From an uncultured bacterium (lineage in GTDB: Bacteria; Verrucomicrobiota; Lentisphaeria; Victivallales; UBA1829): DNA of 64,000 nt. Of the stretch, positions 38,954 to 46,710 are shown in pieces. The translations under genes and the position numbers were made by a program. The notes beneath the pieces were generated by a model that worked only from the letters and a program-made list of their open reading frames with translations, searched no databases and had not been told where the DNA came from. The stretch covers positions 62,001-126,000 of the forward strand of contig CACYZF010000002.1 in the NCBI GenBank assembly GCA_902778895.1, in the 5' to 3' direction. Numbering within the stretch: position 1 is the stretch's first letter; every line of letters starts with the position of its first letter.

Positions 38954-39481
38954 ATGAAACTGAAGTTCAGCAAACCCACGAAATTCGAGTGGATCGTCTT
39001 ATGTGTGGTGCTCGGAGCTGTGGCGTTCATGGCTTTTGTTCTCCACAGCTATATTTGGCAGATTCGGTTCGGCGCCGTCAAATACGGCATGTACCGCGAA
39101 ATCGATGCCGACATCCTCGATGCGATCAAAAGCAAGTACAAGATCGTGAAATGCACGGTCGAACTTCCCCCTGACGACACGATCGAACTCAGCCTCGAAC
39201 TCGATCCGGAAGCCGAAGAGCAGGCGTTCGACATCGCCGGGGACGTGTACGACCTGAAACGGAAGTCGCCCGTCCTGCACAAAAAGCCACTCGAACTGGA
39301 AATACGGGTCCGCGATCCGAAAAACGGCGTCACCCACCGCACTTATATGCCCGGCGTGCCGAATCACAAGAAAAAAAAGAATTATGAGGAGTACCGGGAG
39401 CTGGCCGAAAAATGGTCTGAGATCATCCGGCAGAAAGAGATGGCAGAACGCCGCGCCGCAGAAGGGAACGAGGGACAATGA
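38954..39481 (+). CDS. Single-helix membrane protein with a domain shared with the next gene
   Basis: One membrane helix near residues 13-32, then a ~100-residue alpha/beta domain (REIDADILDAIKSKYKIVKCTVELPPDDTIELSLEL, AFDIAGDVYDLKRKS) and a charged helical tail (HKKKKNYEEYRELAEKW). The following gene repeats this layout almost segment for segment and adds a peroxidase-like domain. Its stop overlaps that gene's ATG by 4 bases. The shared domain is not one I recognise. Duplication followed by fusion or loss is likely. Confidence 0.7.
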   Translation: MKLKFSKPTKFEWIVLCVVLGAVAFMAFVLHSYIWQIRFGAVKYGMYREIDADILDAIKSKYKIVKCTVELPPDDTIELSLELDPEAEEQAFDIAGDVYDLKRKSPVLHKKPLELEIRVRDPKNGVTHRTYMPGVPNHKKKKNYEEYRELAEKWSEIIRQKEMAERRAAEGNEGQ

Positions 39482-40596
39482 AGCTCAGGAAATCCACGAA
39501 GAGAGCGCTGCTGATCGTTACATGCGTGGGGCTTGCGCATGCGGGGTTCGCATCCTACGTTTTTTACAGAATGATTCGCGGCCTTCAATTCGAAGCGGTT
39601 TCGTTCGGCATGCTCGACCAGGTCAGCGCCGATATCATCGACCCGCTTGAAAGCAAGTACAAAATTCGGGAATGCACGGTCGGATTGCCTTCGGACGACA
39701 CGATCGAGCTCAGGATCGAACTCAATTCGATCGATCAGGCGCAGGCGTTCGACATCGCCCGCGAGGTGTACGAGCTGAAAAAGAAGTCGGTCGTCCTGAA
39801 CAGAAAGCCCCTCGATCTGAAGATTTGGGTCTATGATCCGCCGATGGATGGACAGCGCATCGTTTATGTGGACCCGGATTCGAGATACGGCGTCAACATC
39901 CACGTTTCCATACCCGGCGCGCCGGACCACAAGAAAAAACGCGACATGGAAGAGTATCTGGAGCTGGAACGAAAGTGGCGGGAGATCCACTGGCAGAAAG
40001 AACAGGAAGAACGCCGCGCCGCGGCCGGGAATAGTGAAGACGATTCCGGTTCGCCGAAAGAGCCGTCGCGATTTTACGATTTCGAGCTCGAGACATGGGA
40101 CGGGCAGACCCTCCCGACGGCCGATCTCAAAGGAAAGGTCGTACTCGTGGTGAACACCTCCACGGACGATCTTTTCTCCAGGCAGTACGCCCGGCTTGAG
40201 GAGATGTACCGGAAATACCGGGAGAAAGGCTTCGAGATCCTGGACTTCCCCTGCGAACCGTTCCGCTCGGAGAGTCGGACGTTTGCCCCTCGGACGACCC
40301 TCAGCGACGAAGAGATTCATGCGTCACGCAAAACGCTCTACGGGGCGTCGTTCCCGCTGATGAAGAAGTGCGACGTGACCGCCGGAAACGAGATCCCGCT
40401 TTACAGGTTCCTGAAGGCGGGCTCGGGCGAGATCAAATGGTATTTCACAAAATTCGTCATTGACCGCAACGGCAAGGTCGTGCGGCGGTTCCAGCCGGAC
40501 GAGGTCTTCGATCCCGCCGACAGTATGGACGCGCTCGAACAATGCATCCAGTCCCTGCTGGACGTTCCCGTCCCCAAAGCGGAAGAATCCGAATAA
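39478..40596 (+). CDS. Membrane-anchored degenerate glutathione-peroxidase-like protein
   Basis: Residues 8-30 are a membrane helix. Residues ~40-185 repeat the domain of the preceding gene. Residues ~198-365 follow the glutathione-peroxidase fold (RFYDFELETWDGQ, VVLVVN, GFEILDFPCEPF, WYFTKFVIDRNGKVV). The peroxidatic Cys position is Asp231, the FPCNQ glutamine is replaced (FPCEPF), Trp321 is kept and the following Asn is Tyr. The same losses occur in the fusion at 3092-4120, so this is a conserved non-peroxidase branch rather than random decay. Confidence 0.75.
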   Translation: MKLRKSTKRALLIVTCVGLAHAGFASYVFYRMIRGLQFEAVSFGMLDQVSADIIDPLESKYKIRECTVGLPSDDTIELRIELNSIDQAQAFDIAREVYELKKKSVVLNRKPLDLKIWVYDPPMDGQRIVYVDPDSRYGVNIHVSIPGAPDHKKKRDMEEYLELERKWREIHWQKEQEERRAAAGNSEDDSGSPKEPSRFYDFELETWDGQTLPTADLKGKVVLVVNTSTDDLFSRQYARLEEMYRKYREKGFEILDFPCEPFRSESRTFAPRTTLSDEEIHASRKTLYGASFPLMKKCDVTAGNEIPLYRFLKAGSGEIKWYFTKFVIDRNGKVVRRFQPDEVFDPADSMDALEQCIQSLLDVPVPKAEESE

Positions 40597-42070: not shown

Positions 42071-43825
42071 TCATTCCTCCTCGTTTTTCGCCTTGCGGGT
42101 CATGAGCTCGCGGACGACTTCGCGCGCGTCGCGGCCGTCGTGGATCGCGGCGTAGATGCCGTGGATCAGCGGCGTGTCGACGTTCCAGCGTTCGGAGAGC
42201 GCGTAGGCGGCCTCGCAGGTCTTCACGCCCTCGGCCACGACCATATTCATGGACTTGATGATCTCGTCGAGTTTGCGGCCCTTGCCCAGCTCCTCGCCGA
42301 CGAACCGGTTGCGGCTGTGCTTGCTGGTGCAGGTCACGATCAGGTCGCCGACGCCGCTCAGACCGCTGAACGTCTCCTTCTTGCCGCCGAGGACCTTGCC
42401 CAGGCGGGACATCTCGGCGATGGCGCGCGTCATCATGGCGGCCTTCGAATTGTCGCCCATGCCGCAGCCATCCACGATGCCCGCCGCGATGGCGTAGATG
42501 TTCTTCAGCGCGCCGCCCAGCTCCACGCCGACCACGTCGTACGACGTGTACACGCGGAAGAATTCGTTCATGAAAATGCGCTGCACGTATTCCGCGATGT
42601 CGCGGTCCTCGCACGCGGTCACGACCAGAGTCGGGATCCGGCGCGCGACCTCCTCGGCGTGGCTCGGGCCGGAGAGCGCCACGTAATGCGTCGGGCCGAG
42701 TTCCTGGCGGCAGAGTTCGCTCATGGTCAGCAGCGAGTTCACCTCGATGCCCTTCACGATGTCCACGATGATCTGCGTGTCGGGGTTCAGGTGCGGCTTG
42801 AATTTCTGAAGCACGCCGCGGAGGTACTGCGACGGCGTCGCGAGCACGATCAGACGCGCGTCCTTCACCGCCGATTCCATGTCGGAGGTATATTCCAGGT
42901 CCGCCGGGATCGGCACGCCCGGCAGGAATTTCCTGTTCTCATGCTCGCGGTTTACGGCGTCGATGTTCTCCTGGAACGCACCCCACACTTTCACCTTGTG
43001 GCCGTTGGCGTGGAGCGTGAGCGCGAGCGCGGTGCCCCAGGCACCGTCGCCCAGCACCGCCGCATTGATGGCGGAATCGTCCTGAAGCGTTGCGATCGAG
43101 AGCGGCGCGACTTTCTTCTTGCGTTCGAACTTGTTCTCCGTCCCCTCGCGCAGACGTTTGATGTTGGAAGCGTGCTTCGTCACGGACAGCGCGGCGAGCA
43201 GGAAGAAAAGGATCATCTCCGGCGGATTCGCATTCGAGAGCCCGGCGATCTTGTAGACCACGCAGAACACCGCGATCGATACGGCCGCCGCGATGCTCGC
43301 CAGCGACACGTAGCGCGAGGCGAAAAACACGATCACCCACACCGCCCCGGCGGACAGCAGAGACAGCGGATTCAGCGCCAGGATCGCGCCCGCCGCCGTC
43401 GAAACGCCCTTCCCGCCCTTGAAGTTCAGGTACACGGGCCAGATGTGCCCGCAGACCGCCGCGAACGCCGCCACGCAGGCCAGCAGTCCGCCCGGATCCG
43501 GCAGGCAGGCTTCCATTTTCAGCCATTCGGGCAGGTGCTCCACCACGAACTGCGAGGATTCGCGGTCGGAGAGCATGGAGGCGGCGATCACGGGTACCGC
43601 GCCCTTCAGGAAGTCGAGGAAGAAGCAGAGGCGTCCCCAGCCTTTGCCGAGCACGCGCGTCACGTTCGTGGCGCCGATGTTGCCGCTGCCGTGCTTCCGG
43701 ATGTCGATGCCCCGGACCGTTTTGCCGAGGAGGAATCCGAACGGGATGGCTCCGACGAGGTAGGAGCCGAGCGCGATCACGGTGATGGAAATACCGATGC
43801 CGACTGGAGTATTGGGAATCGTCAT
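42071..43825 (-). CDS. PlsY-GpsA fusion: acyl-phosphate glycerol-3-phosphate acyltransferase joined to glycerol-3-phosphate dehydrogenase
   Basis: Residues ~1-225 are PlsY, the membrane enzyme that acylates glycerol-3-phosphate from acyl-phosphate: GAIPFGFLLGK, KHGSGNIGATNV, FKGGKGVST, and TKHASNIKRL. A basic linker (~226-250) leads into GpsA: NAD(P) loop AAVLGDGAWGTALA, KGIEVNS, ALSGPSHAEEVA, the catalytic Lys in ELGGALKNIYAIAAGI, and SGVGDLIVTC. GpsA makes glycerol-3-phosphate from dihydroxyacetone phosphate, so one chain carries two successive steps and could hand product directly to PlsY at the membrane. The reading frame is continuous through the junction near 43070. Both domains look complete and active. 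Confidence 0.93.
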   Translation of the reverse strand: MTIPNTPVGIGISITVIALGSYLVGAIPFGFLLGKTVRGIDIRKHGSGNIGATNVTRVLGKGWGRLCFFLDFLKGAVPVIAASMLSDRESSQFVVEHLPEWLKMEACLPDPGGLLACVAAFAAVCGHIWPVYLNFKGGKGVSTAAGAILALNPLSLLSAGAVWVIVFFASRYVSLASIAAAVSIAVFCVVYKIAGLSNANPPEMILFFLLAALSVTKHASNIKRLREGTENKFERKKKVAPLSIATLQDDSAINAAVLGDGAWGTALALTLHANGHKVKVWGAFQENIDAVNREHENRKFLPGVPIPADLEYTSDMESAVKDARLIVLATPSQYLRGVLQKFKPHLNPDTQIIVDIVKGIEVNSLLTMSELCRQELGPTHYVALSGPSHAEEVARRIPTLVVTACEDRDIAEYVQRIFMNEFFRVYTSYDVVGVELGGALKNIYAIAAGIVDGCGMGDNSKAAMMTRAIAEMSRLGKVLGGKKETFSGLSGVGDLIVTCTSKHSRNRFVGEELGKGRKLDEIIKSMNMVVAEGVKTCEAAYALSERWNVDTPLIHGIYAAIHDGRDAREVVRELMTRKAKNEEE

Positions 43826-43924: not shown

Positions 43925-45055
43925 ATGGAAAAAGTCACGCAGGGACGCCTGATCGCCGCCACCACCGCCGAATCCGCCGACCTGGTCTACGGGTCCGGGT
44001 TCTTCGCCCCCGACGAGTTCATCTACGCCGAGATCGGCGGCAAACGCTACGTATTCGTCTCCGTGCTGGAGATCGCGCGCGCCCGCCGCGAAGTCCGCCC
44101 CGGCATCGAGGTGGTCGACTTCGCCGACGTCCTGAAACAGGCCCCGCAGGACTGCAAGCGCTGCCTCGTCGCCGCCATCAGCAAAGTCTACGGCGTGACC
44201 CGCTGGCAGGTGCCCGAACGCTTCCCCCTCATCTTCGCCGAAAAGCTCCGCGCCGCCGGAGTCGAGGTCGTCATGGCGGACGGCCCCTTCTTCCCCGAAC
44301 GCGCCGTGAAGCGCCCGGACGAGATCGAAAAGCTCCGCGCCGCCGAGGCCGCCACGCAGGATGCCCAGCTCCAGGTGCGCGATTTCATCGCCGAATCCAC
44401 GGTCAATTCCCAGGGCTTCCTCGAATGGCACGGCAAGGTCCTGACCTGCGAATTCATCCGCGCCGAGGTCGAAGCCGAGTTCAAGCGCAAATCCTATTCC
44501 GCCGTCGGCACCATCATCTCCTGCGGCCCGGACTCCGCCCTGCCCCACTGCATCGGCAGCGGCCCGATCAAGGCCGGCGCGCCCGTCGTCTCCGACATCT
44601 TCCCGCGCAGCGACGTCAACGGCTACTGGGGCGACATGACCCGTACGTTCGTGAAGGGCAAGGCGAGCAAGCGCCTCTTCGAGATGTACAAGGCGGTCCG
44701 TTATGTGAACGAAGCCGTCGAGGCGCAGCTGAAGCCCGGCGTCCCGTGCAGCCTCATGCAGGATTTCTGCATCAAGTCGCTCGCCGAAGCCGGATTCAAG
44801 ACCGGCGTCGACGACGAGGGCTACCCCTGCGGATACTTCCACGGGCTCGGACACAGCGTCGGGCTTGAGATCCATGAACAGCCCCGGTTCTCCGCGCGCA
44901 ATTTCGAGCTGCTCCAGCCCGGAAACGTCATCACGGTCGAACCCGGCCTGTACTACCACGACATCGGCGGCGTCCGCATTGAGGACCTCGTGCTCATCAC
45001 CGAGACCGGCATCGAAAACTTCTGCTCCATGCCGAAGGACATCGAAGTCCCGTAA
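43925..45055 (+). CDS. M24-family metallopeptidase (Xaa-Pro aminopeptidase type)
   Basis: Cleaves N-terminal residues, often before proline. The N-terminal ~130 residues form the creatinase-like domain. The C-terminal pita-bread domain has all five metal ligands: Asp in VVSDIFP, Asp in GDMTRTF, His in HGLGHSVGLEIHEQP, Glu in TVEPGLYY and Glu in IEDLVLI. The 376-residue length is normal. It is monocistronic with a strong terminator. Confidence 0.9.
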   Translation: MEKVTQGRLIAATTAESADLVYGSGFFAPDEFIYAEIGGKRYVFVSVLEIARARREVRPGIEVVDFADVLKQAPQDCKRCLVAAISKVYGVTRWQVPERFPLIFAEKLRAAGVEVVMADGPFFPERAVKRPDEIEKLRAAEAATQDAQLQVRDFIAESTVNSQGFLEWHGKVLTCEFIRAEVEAEFKRKSYSAVGTIISCGPDSALPHCIGSGPIKAGAPVVSDIFPRSDVNGYWGDMTRTFVKGKASKRLFEMYKAVRYVNEAVEAQLKPGVPCSLMQDFCIKSLAEAGFKTGVDDEGYPCGYFHGLGHSVGLEIHEQPRFSARNFELLQPGNVITVEPGLYYHDIGGVRIEDLVLITETGIENFCSMPKDIEVP

Positions 45056-45327: not shown

Positions 45328-45375
45328 TTGAACAAAAATGTCATTTTTGACAAAAGTGTTCAATGGTTAAGCTCA
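45328..45375. repeat. 48-bp direct repeat, downstream copy flanking the ATPase gene
   Basis: Matches 46719-46766 at 43 of 48 positions. Each copy is itself an imperfect palindrome (TTGAACA ... TGTTCAA at the ends of its first 36 bases). This copy overlaps the ATPase stop codon. Confidence 0.85.
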
Positions 45376-46626
45376 CTGGTCCATGCTTTCCGGGCCTTTG
45401 AGGAAATCCTTCAGGCCGATTACCAGAATGCCGTCCTCGGTATGATACGGACGCATGGGATCATACATCACAATGATCTTTCGGAAAGAGTCTCCGATCT
45501 TCAGCAGGGAGCGCGTCTCCTGTTCCCGTTTCTCGTCATCGGGTATCTGAAAGGCCGACTGGATATAATACCGCCGATGCCCCTGATTGGCGACGAAATC
45601 GACCTCAAGAGTCTGTCTTGACGCTTTGCCGTCCATGTTCGTTCCGCTCGCGGGGACACATCCGACATCAACGGAAAACCCCCAAATGCGCAGCTCATTA
45701 TAGATCAGGTTCTCCATCAGATGATTCTGTTCCAGCTGACGGAACCCGAGACAGGCGTTCCGGATGCCGAGGTCTTCGAAGTAGTATTTCTGGGGAGAGT
45801 CGATGTATCTGCGCCCTTTGATGTCATACCGGACGGCCTTGCTGACAAGAAACGCATCCTCCAGATGCTTGCTGTAAGCTCCGACGGTATTGACGGAAAG
45901 CGACACTCCTTTTGAGGATTTGAACGTATTGGACAGCTTCCGCATGCTTGACAGGGCGCCAATGGATGAAGCATAGAACTTGAGCAGTTCCTCCATTTCA
46001 GCCGGGTGCTGAATCCGGTTGCGTTCCACAAGGTCCTTGATGTAAACCTCATGGAAAAGATGCTCCAGGTAGCTTTCCTTCTGCCGTTCGGTCCTGCATG
46101 AAAAAAGATACGGCAGTCCACCATAGCGAAGATAATCGCTCAATGCCTGGTCCACAGGCACATCGCATGCAGAAACGTATTCTGCAAAGGAGAGCGGAAA
46201 CACATGGATTTCATCGCCGCGCCCACGGAATTCCGTGATGACATCGGAGGAAAGGAATCGCGAATTGCTTCCGGTAACGTAAACATCCAGATTGTCAATA
46301 TGCAGACAACTGTTCAGGACATCCGCGAAATCGCGAAGGAACTGCACTTCATCCAGGACAAGATAATACTGCCCTTTATCTTTCAAACAACCATCAATCC
46401 AGGAAAGCATTGCATCCGGAGAACGCAGGCCGAGGTTGTGCCGGTCGTCCAGCGCAACTTCCAGAATATGGTCTTCGGGGACGCCTTCCTCGACAAGATG
46501 CTTGTGAAAAAGCTTCAGCAGAAGATATGACTTTCCGGACCGCCTCATGCCGGTAACTACCTTGATCATACCGTTCTGCCTGCGGATAAGCAGCTCGTTT
46601 AAATAATGGTCACGTCGGATTATCAT
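45373..46626 (-). CDS. AAA-family ATPase with DUF4143 C-terminal domain
   Basis: A 417-residue predicted P-loop ATPase of the AAA_14/DUF4143 group, of unknown role. Walker A is VVTGMRRSGKS, Walker B is YYLVLDEVQFL, with a sensor-like TGSNSRFLSSD and the Arg-rich TEFRGRG. The C-terminal DUF4143 region has FYASSIGALSSMRKLSNTFKS and YYFEDLGIRNACLGF, then DFVANQG with a PD-(D/E)XK-like hydrophobic strand (YYIQSAFQI). I start at 46626 because AAGGAGG lies 7 bp upstream, rather than 22 codons earlier. AT-richer than the flanks and bracketed by 48-bp repeats, so probably acquired. Confidence 0.88.
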   Translation of the reverse strand: MIIRRDHYLNELLIRRQNGMIKVVTGMRRSGKSYLLLKLFHKHLVEEGVPEDHILEVALDDRHNLGLRSPDAMLSWIDGCLKDKGQYYLVLDEVQFLRDFADVLNSCLHIDNLDVYVTGSNSRFLSSDVITEFRGRGDEIHVFPLSFAEYVSACDVPVDQALSDYLRYGGLPYLFSCRTERQKESYLEHLFHEVYIKDLVERNRIQHPAEMEELLKFYASSIGALSSMRKLSNTFKSSKGVSLSVNTVGAYSKHLEDAFLVSKAVRYDIKGRRYIDSPQKYYFEDLGIRNACLGFRQLEQNHLMENLIYNELRIWGFSVDVGCVPASGTNMDGKASRQTLEVDFVANQGHRRYYIQSAFQIPDDEKREQETRSLLKIGDSFRKIIVMYDPMRPYHTEDGILVIGLKDFLKGPESMDQ

Positions 46627-46682
46627 CGGTATGCCTCCTTGGAATGGGATTGCCGTTGATTGAATAGCTGGTTCCACATCTA

Positions 46683-46710
46683 AATATATCATGTGTTTTT
46701 ATTTATTCAA
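46683..46710 (-). promoter_or_regulatory. Promoter of the ATPase gene
   Basis: Minus strand TTGAAT (46705-46710), 16-bp spacer, TATATT (46683-46688) preceded by TGA. The 48-bp repeat ends 9 bp upstream of the -35, a position suited to an operator. Confidence 0.65.

Follow-up and report, generated by a model that had tools for sequence, protein, structure and literature searches.

Whether One Gene Encodes Both PlsY and GpsA

PlsY and GpsA are textbook enzymes known as separate proteins, PlsY being the membrane acyltransferase of the PlsX/PlsY/PlsC route. The locus described here raises the question of whether the two are made as a single polypeptide and, if so, how such a protein arose and what it would do in the cell. 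The initial annotation of the window (the whole stretch of DNA analysed, 64,000 nucleotides) had placed PlsY and GpsA, in this order, in a single uninterrupted frame, and this was confirmed: the frame on the reverse strand comprises 584 codons, from an ATG at 43825 to a stop codon at 42073-42071 (Table 1). In the PlsY part, Pfam PF02660 matches residues 21-225 with 184.5 bits (cut-off 24.1) and NCBIfam TIGR00023 scores 180.6 bits (cut-off 137.2). The N and C domains of GpsA follow, both above the curated Pfam cut-offs (PF01210 at residues 256-410, 167.1 bits; PF07479 at residues 430-571, 188.2 bits), together with PF20618 (73.5 bits) and the NCBIfam subfamily NF000942 (419.2 bits, cut-off 257). 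As the strand opposite the fused gene is also open, with a frame of 600 aa, open frames alone carry little weight in this GC-rich DNA, and the case for a fusion therefore rests on homology and conservation.

Table 1. Positions in the window of the fused gene, its parts and its divergent neighbour.
Feature	Position	Strand	Extent and basis
Fused plsY-gpsA gene	42071..43825	-	584 aa, single frame; open likewise in genus relatives
PlsY (acyl-phosphate:glycerol-3-phosphate acyltransferase) domain	43124..43825	-	Residues 1-234; PF02660, TIGR00023, alignment to 5xj5, fold match to 5xj6
Interdomain linker	43067..43123	-	Residues 235-253, about 19; in-frame comparison with sister genera, dN/dS, pLDDT
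GpsA (NAD(P)H glycerol-3-phosphate dehydrogenase) domain	42074..43066	-	Residues 254-584, complete; PF01210, PF07479, PF20618, fold match to 3k96
M24 peptidase, divergent neighbour	43925..45055	+	Flanks plsY-gpsA in all members of the genus; no component of the enzyme

Both Halves Retain Their Catalytic Motifs and Folds

We then examined whether the signature motifs of the two enzymes are intact, as had been claimed from the sequence, and found that they are. Alignment to 5xj5 showed that the glycerol-3-phosphate (G3P)-binding residues of Aquifex aeolicus PlsY (aaPlsY) are kept, within GSGNIGATNVTR, FKGGKG, RYVSLAS and HASN; aaPlsY Ser35, Arg45, Lys104, Ser142, His177 and Asn180 correspond here to Ser47, Arg57, Lys139, Ser174, His218 and Asn221. 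The roles of the aaPlsY residues in the G3P clamp and in hydroxyl contacts have been described (PMC5700162). All six are invariant in our alignment A2, in which the single stop codon of the in-frame sister sequences was entered as Q solely for alignment depth, and so are K358 and K441 of the GpsA part. The GpsA motifs are found at residues 259 (GDGAWG), 358 (KGIE), 438 (GALKN), 457 (GDNSK) and 504 (SRNR).

In the AlphaFold2 model (mean pLDDT 87), both domains are confidently predicted; confidence is low in the linker (pLDDT <50 at residues 235-240), and with a pTM of 0.59 the mutual orientation of the domains is uncertain. Foldseek matched the PlsY half to A. aeolicus PlsY (5xj6, TM-score 0.87 by target length) and the GpsA half to Coxiella burnetii GpsA (3k96, TM-score 0.96 by target length). 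By every sequence test applied, both halves are thus ordinary members of known families.

The Fused Frame Is Conserved throughout the Genus

The genus to which the window's genome belongs comprises 13 genomes. The whole fused frame is free of stop codons in 12 of them, with 70-100% identity to the window protein, and in the remaining one (G023) the frame crosses the junction and is interrupted only at residue 461, by the end of the contig. No stop codon interrupts the junction itself (residues 235-253, nt 43123-43067) in any of the 13. An error of sequencing or assembly at the junction had been named at the outset as a way in which the fusion could prove false; more broadly, an artefact of sequencing, assembly or gene calling could have merged two genes through a missed stop codon or a frameshift. 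This explanation draws some force from the nature of the matching public records, which are metagenome assemblies labelled Lentisphaeria, Lentisphaerae or Victivallales, and from assembly-type breaks in some relatives (G004, G001). However, separately assembled genomes with 70-98% protein identity, including those from goat, sheep and yak rumen, share the same open frame, the sequences have diverged at synonymous positions, and linker lengths differ between members of the genus by multiples of three. The dN/dS of the linker is 0.28 in 11 close sequences and 0.36 when the 70% outlier is added, compared with 0.13-0.20 for the PlsY and GpsA parts; the linker thus evolves faster than the domains, and its value of about 0.3 indicates that it is translated and mildly constrained by purifying selection. 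Given the open junction in 13/13 genomes, the dN/dS values and the linker indels, we rejected an artefact, whose probability we regard as negligible.

The Fusion Arose Once from Adjacent Genes

Elsewhere in the family, in its other genera, plsY and gpsA are neighbouring genes on one strand that overlap or are parted by a short spacer. The arrangement in G006 is informative: plsY ends in ENRFEKKCKK, which is followed by TAA GAG TTG ATA AGC and then by the ATG of gpsA (MKICILGDG), all in one frame, and in G008 a lone TAA in the spacer likewise separates two genes of one frame. At the positions matching the plsY end, spacer and gpsA start of G006, the fused genus reads ENKFERKKKVAPLSIATLQDDSAINAAVLGDG. 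The fusion can therefore be explained without any rearrangement, by the loss of the plsY stop codon and of the start codon of the adjacent gpsA, the linker being the former spacer. The fused sequences are monophyletic in the PlsY tree as well as in the GpsA tree (SH-aLRT 99 each), which implies a single fusion event followed by vertical inheritance.

Two irregular copies of gpsA were seen in these comparisons. In a genome of genus g2 of the same family (L065, G001:C65:300-3300), an in-frame TAG at about 1941 breaks a separate gpsA, reflecting either a metagenome error or a broken gene, and at L068 (G004:C71:500-3300) gpsA is divided over two frames at about 1645-1655, probably by an assembly frameshift.

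Mapping of the fusion over the PVC group had been suggested in the initial annotation. Among the matches listed, no stop-free match across both domains was found outside the genus in 198 genomes of the class, nor any among 388 genomes sampled from the phylum. As far as these sequence searches reach, and a highly diverged fusion might escape them, the fusion appears confined to one genus. This restriction, together with its origin from adjacent genes, marks it as a local innovation and not a trait of the PVC group. The gene order, judged from annotated sequences, is itself old, as a clostridium and a coriobacterium both have annotated der-plsY-gpsA clusters. Tandem pairs outside the phylum, in Monoglobus, Acetoanaerobium and Collinsella, were considered as further fusions and rejected, being separate genes.

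The Fused Gene Is the Sole Copy of Both Enzymes

Separate plsY and gpsA genes elsewhere in the genome, with the fused copy unexpressed, had also been named at the outset as grounds for rejecting the fusion; profile searches of the 13 genomes of the genus found no second copy of PlsY or GpsA in any of them. Each genome has exactly one PF02660 protein and exactly one PF07479 protein, in both cases always the fused gene (13/13); in G023, a second PF07479 row comes from the remaining half of the interrupted fused gene. PlsX, the source of the acyl-phosphate donor, occurs in 13/13 genomes (in G000, plsX lies at L081 2290-3354). PlsB was rejected as an alternative acyltransferase, its C-domain (PF19277) being found in 0/13 genomes with a positive E. 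coli control, and glycerol kinase was rejected as an alternative source of G3P, as nothing exceeded the family cut-off in the 13 genomes and the controls were positive. The fused gene therefore encodes the only G3P acyltransferase, and provides the only path from DHAP to G3P, that was identified by these searches for PlsY, PlsB, GpsA and glycerol kinase. Having replaced both separate genes, it must carry both functions in this genus.

Two large PF01553 proteins were also observed in the window's genome (L079 583-2859 and L080 729-4373). They combine an acyltransferase with an AMP-binding-like part and, from a reading of their sequence, appear Aas-like, one of them also having an N-terminal transporter-like part; a role in lysophospholipid or fatty-acid salvage is possible.

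A Probable Membrane-Anchored Bifunctional Enzyme

Taken together, the fusion product is very probably a bifunctional membrane-anchored enzyme with GpsA on the cytoplasmic face, which arose once in the ancestor of the genus. The N-terminal PlsY domain would lie in the inner membrane with its C-terminus leaving on the cytoplasmic side, where a short flexible linker would bear the complete GpsA domain. This domain would reduce DHAP to sn-glycerol-3-phosphate beside the PlsY site, which would acylate it with PlsX-supplied acyl-phosphate to give lysophosphatidate. A. aeolicus PlsY has seven TM helices and a G3P site open to the cytoplasm (PMC5700162). In the fused protein, Lys and Arg are enriched in the predicted cytoplasmic segments of PlsY, and the extension after the HxxN motif is Lys/Arg-rich. 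The cytoplasmic placement of GpsA proposed from the sequence is therefore likely, from the aaPlsY topology and the Lys/Arg-rich C-terminal extension, and an extension that emerges in the cytoplasm would bring GpsA into the compartment that holds NAD(P)H and DHAP. We presume expression as one uncleaved chain, which would fix the dosage of the two activities; the 1:1 ratio and the membrane tethering put forward earlier hold for an uncleaved polypeptide.

The chain could instead be cut in the linker, or GpsA could also be made from an internal start, giving two ordinary separate enzymes; the fusion would then matter only for coupled expression. The linker is compatible with this, as it is predicted to be disordered (pLDDT <50 at 235-240) and evolves faster than the domains, and linker cleavage is possible. 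As for an internal start, there is a conserved GTG at the start of GpsA, and in-frame ATG codons occur within the linker of three species (L008, L011, L069). However, these ATGs lie at differing places and none is preceded by a Shine-Dalgarno-like motif. The GTG specifies the Val of VLGDG, within the first Rossmann strand (modelled 254-258), and GTG accounts for 35 of the 55 Val codons of the fused gene, more than any other codon. A Shine-Dalgarno-like sequence is absent upstream of every candidate start, although this is modest evidence, since the fused gene's own start codon also lacks a clear one. In the window gene, the GTG of VLGDG is the sole start codon near the GpsA start, and its position within the first Rossmann strand, with no Shine-Dalgarno-like sequence, makes internal initiation unlikely in this species. 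The frame across the junction is also kept open genus-wide; this is compatible with cleavage, but would not be needed if GpsA came from internal initiation alone. Overall, we consider two separate products improbable.

The initial annotation had further proposed that the fusion channels its intermediate, and nothing in the sequence was found to support this. On this account, the fusion would have evolved for the direct passage of G3P between the active sites, or for its shielding from competing use, with a kinetic gain beyond co-localisation. PlsY and GpsA do catalyse consecutive steps of the pathway, the GpsA domain is the only identified source of G3P (no glycerol kinase being above the cut-off), and the G3P clamp of PlsY opens to the cytoplasm (PMC5700162). 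Against this, the linker is predicted to be disordered and shows no strong conservation, the model gives no confident arrangement of the domains relative to each other (pTM 0.59), and G3P itself is soluble and stable. In vitro, PlsY works without any other protein, and channelling has been raised for acyl-phosphate and lysoPA only (PMC5700162). With a disordered linker and neither a tunnel nor a rigid interface in the data, the data allow no claim beyond proximity, and we regard channelling as unlikely. The tethered bifunctional enzyme at a forced 1:1 ratio most likely provides the simplest working model, in which G3P would be supplied locally through proximity and not through a tunnel.

A more elaborate version of the tethered enzyme, which we hold to be rather doubtful, would make it a dedicated enzyme of phospholipid entry: dimerisation of GpsA would pair two PlsY subunits on the membrane, and locally made G3P would be preferentially acylated. 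If true, the committed step of phospholipid synthesis would be tied to DHAP and NAD(P)H at the membrane.

Comparison with Known Enzymes and Fusions

The fused PlsY resembles separate PlsY (TIGR00023/PF02660; 5xj5-5xj9) in fold, motifs and G3P-binding residues, and differs in bearing a C-terminal GpsA and in a predicted extracytoplasmic loop (about residues 86-112) that is longer. Similarly, the fused GpsA is complete like separate GpsA (PF01210/PF07479; 3k96, 1z82), has all the signature motifs and is predicted to be NAD(P)H-dependent; in contrast to the normally soluble, stand-alone enzyme, it is carried on a polytopic membrane protein and has no start codon of its own. The plsY-gpsA pairs of Clostridia and Coriobacteriia (der-plsY-gpsA) and of Lentisphaeria have the order and strand of the fusion and represent its direct precursor arrangement, but they encode two polypeptides, parted by a stop codon or overlapping in different frames.

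Other fusions of PlsY have been sought previously, and none with PlsX or PlsC was reported, only one with a C-terminal FakB-like fatty-acid-binding partner (PMC5700162). In this PlsY-FakB-like protein (DagV in that paper; A0A0P6X7I7, A0A0P6XUK7), a pathway protein likewise sits on the PlsY C-terminus, but the FakB-like partner concerns the acyl-phosphate substrate, whereas the GpsA partner makes the G3P substrate. In the algal bidomain phosphoserine phosphatase-GPDH (6iuy; PMC7468427), a GPDH is also fused to an enzyme thought to use its product; this protein makes glycerol, however, and its partner is a phosphatase unrelated to PlsY. As the initial annotation had supposed, the PlsY-GpsA fusion seems not to be a described enzyme: no description was found in full-text searches of open-access literature. 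The novelty lies in the combination of PlsY and GpsA and not in either half; the fusion is real, conserved and of single origin, but mechanistically conservative. It is a natural joining of two consecutive steps of phospholipid synthesis that has replaced both separate genes genus-wide, and, being encoded by one gene, it offers a ready means of asking whether flux changes when the enzyme that makes G3P is tethered to PlsY. It also serves as "Rosetta stone" evidence for PlsY and GpsA possibly acting next to each other where they are separate proteins; their genes are neighbours in distant phyla as well.

Neighbouring Genes

Next to the M24 peptidase gene lies a gene for an AAA_14/DUF4143 ATPase (window 45373-46692, reverse strand). 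Relatives with 45-49% identity occur near the same place in just two related loci (L040, L042), so this gene looks like a variable insertion. On the other side of the fused gene, two tandem related ORFs (38954-40596; 175 and 372 aa) have a common N-terminal membrane-anchored region, and the 372-aa ORF also has a glutathione-peroxidase-like domain (PF00255). Short proteins resembling these two ORFs adjoin plsX (L081 605-1680).
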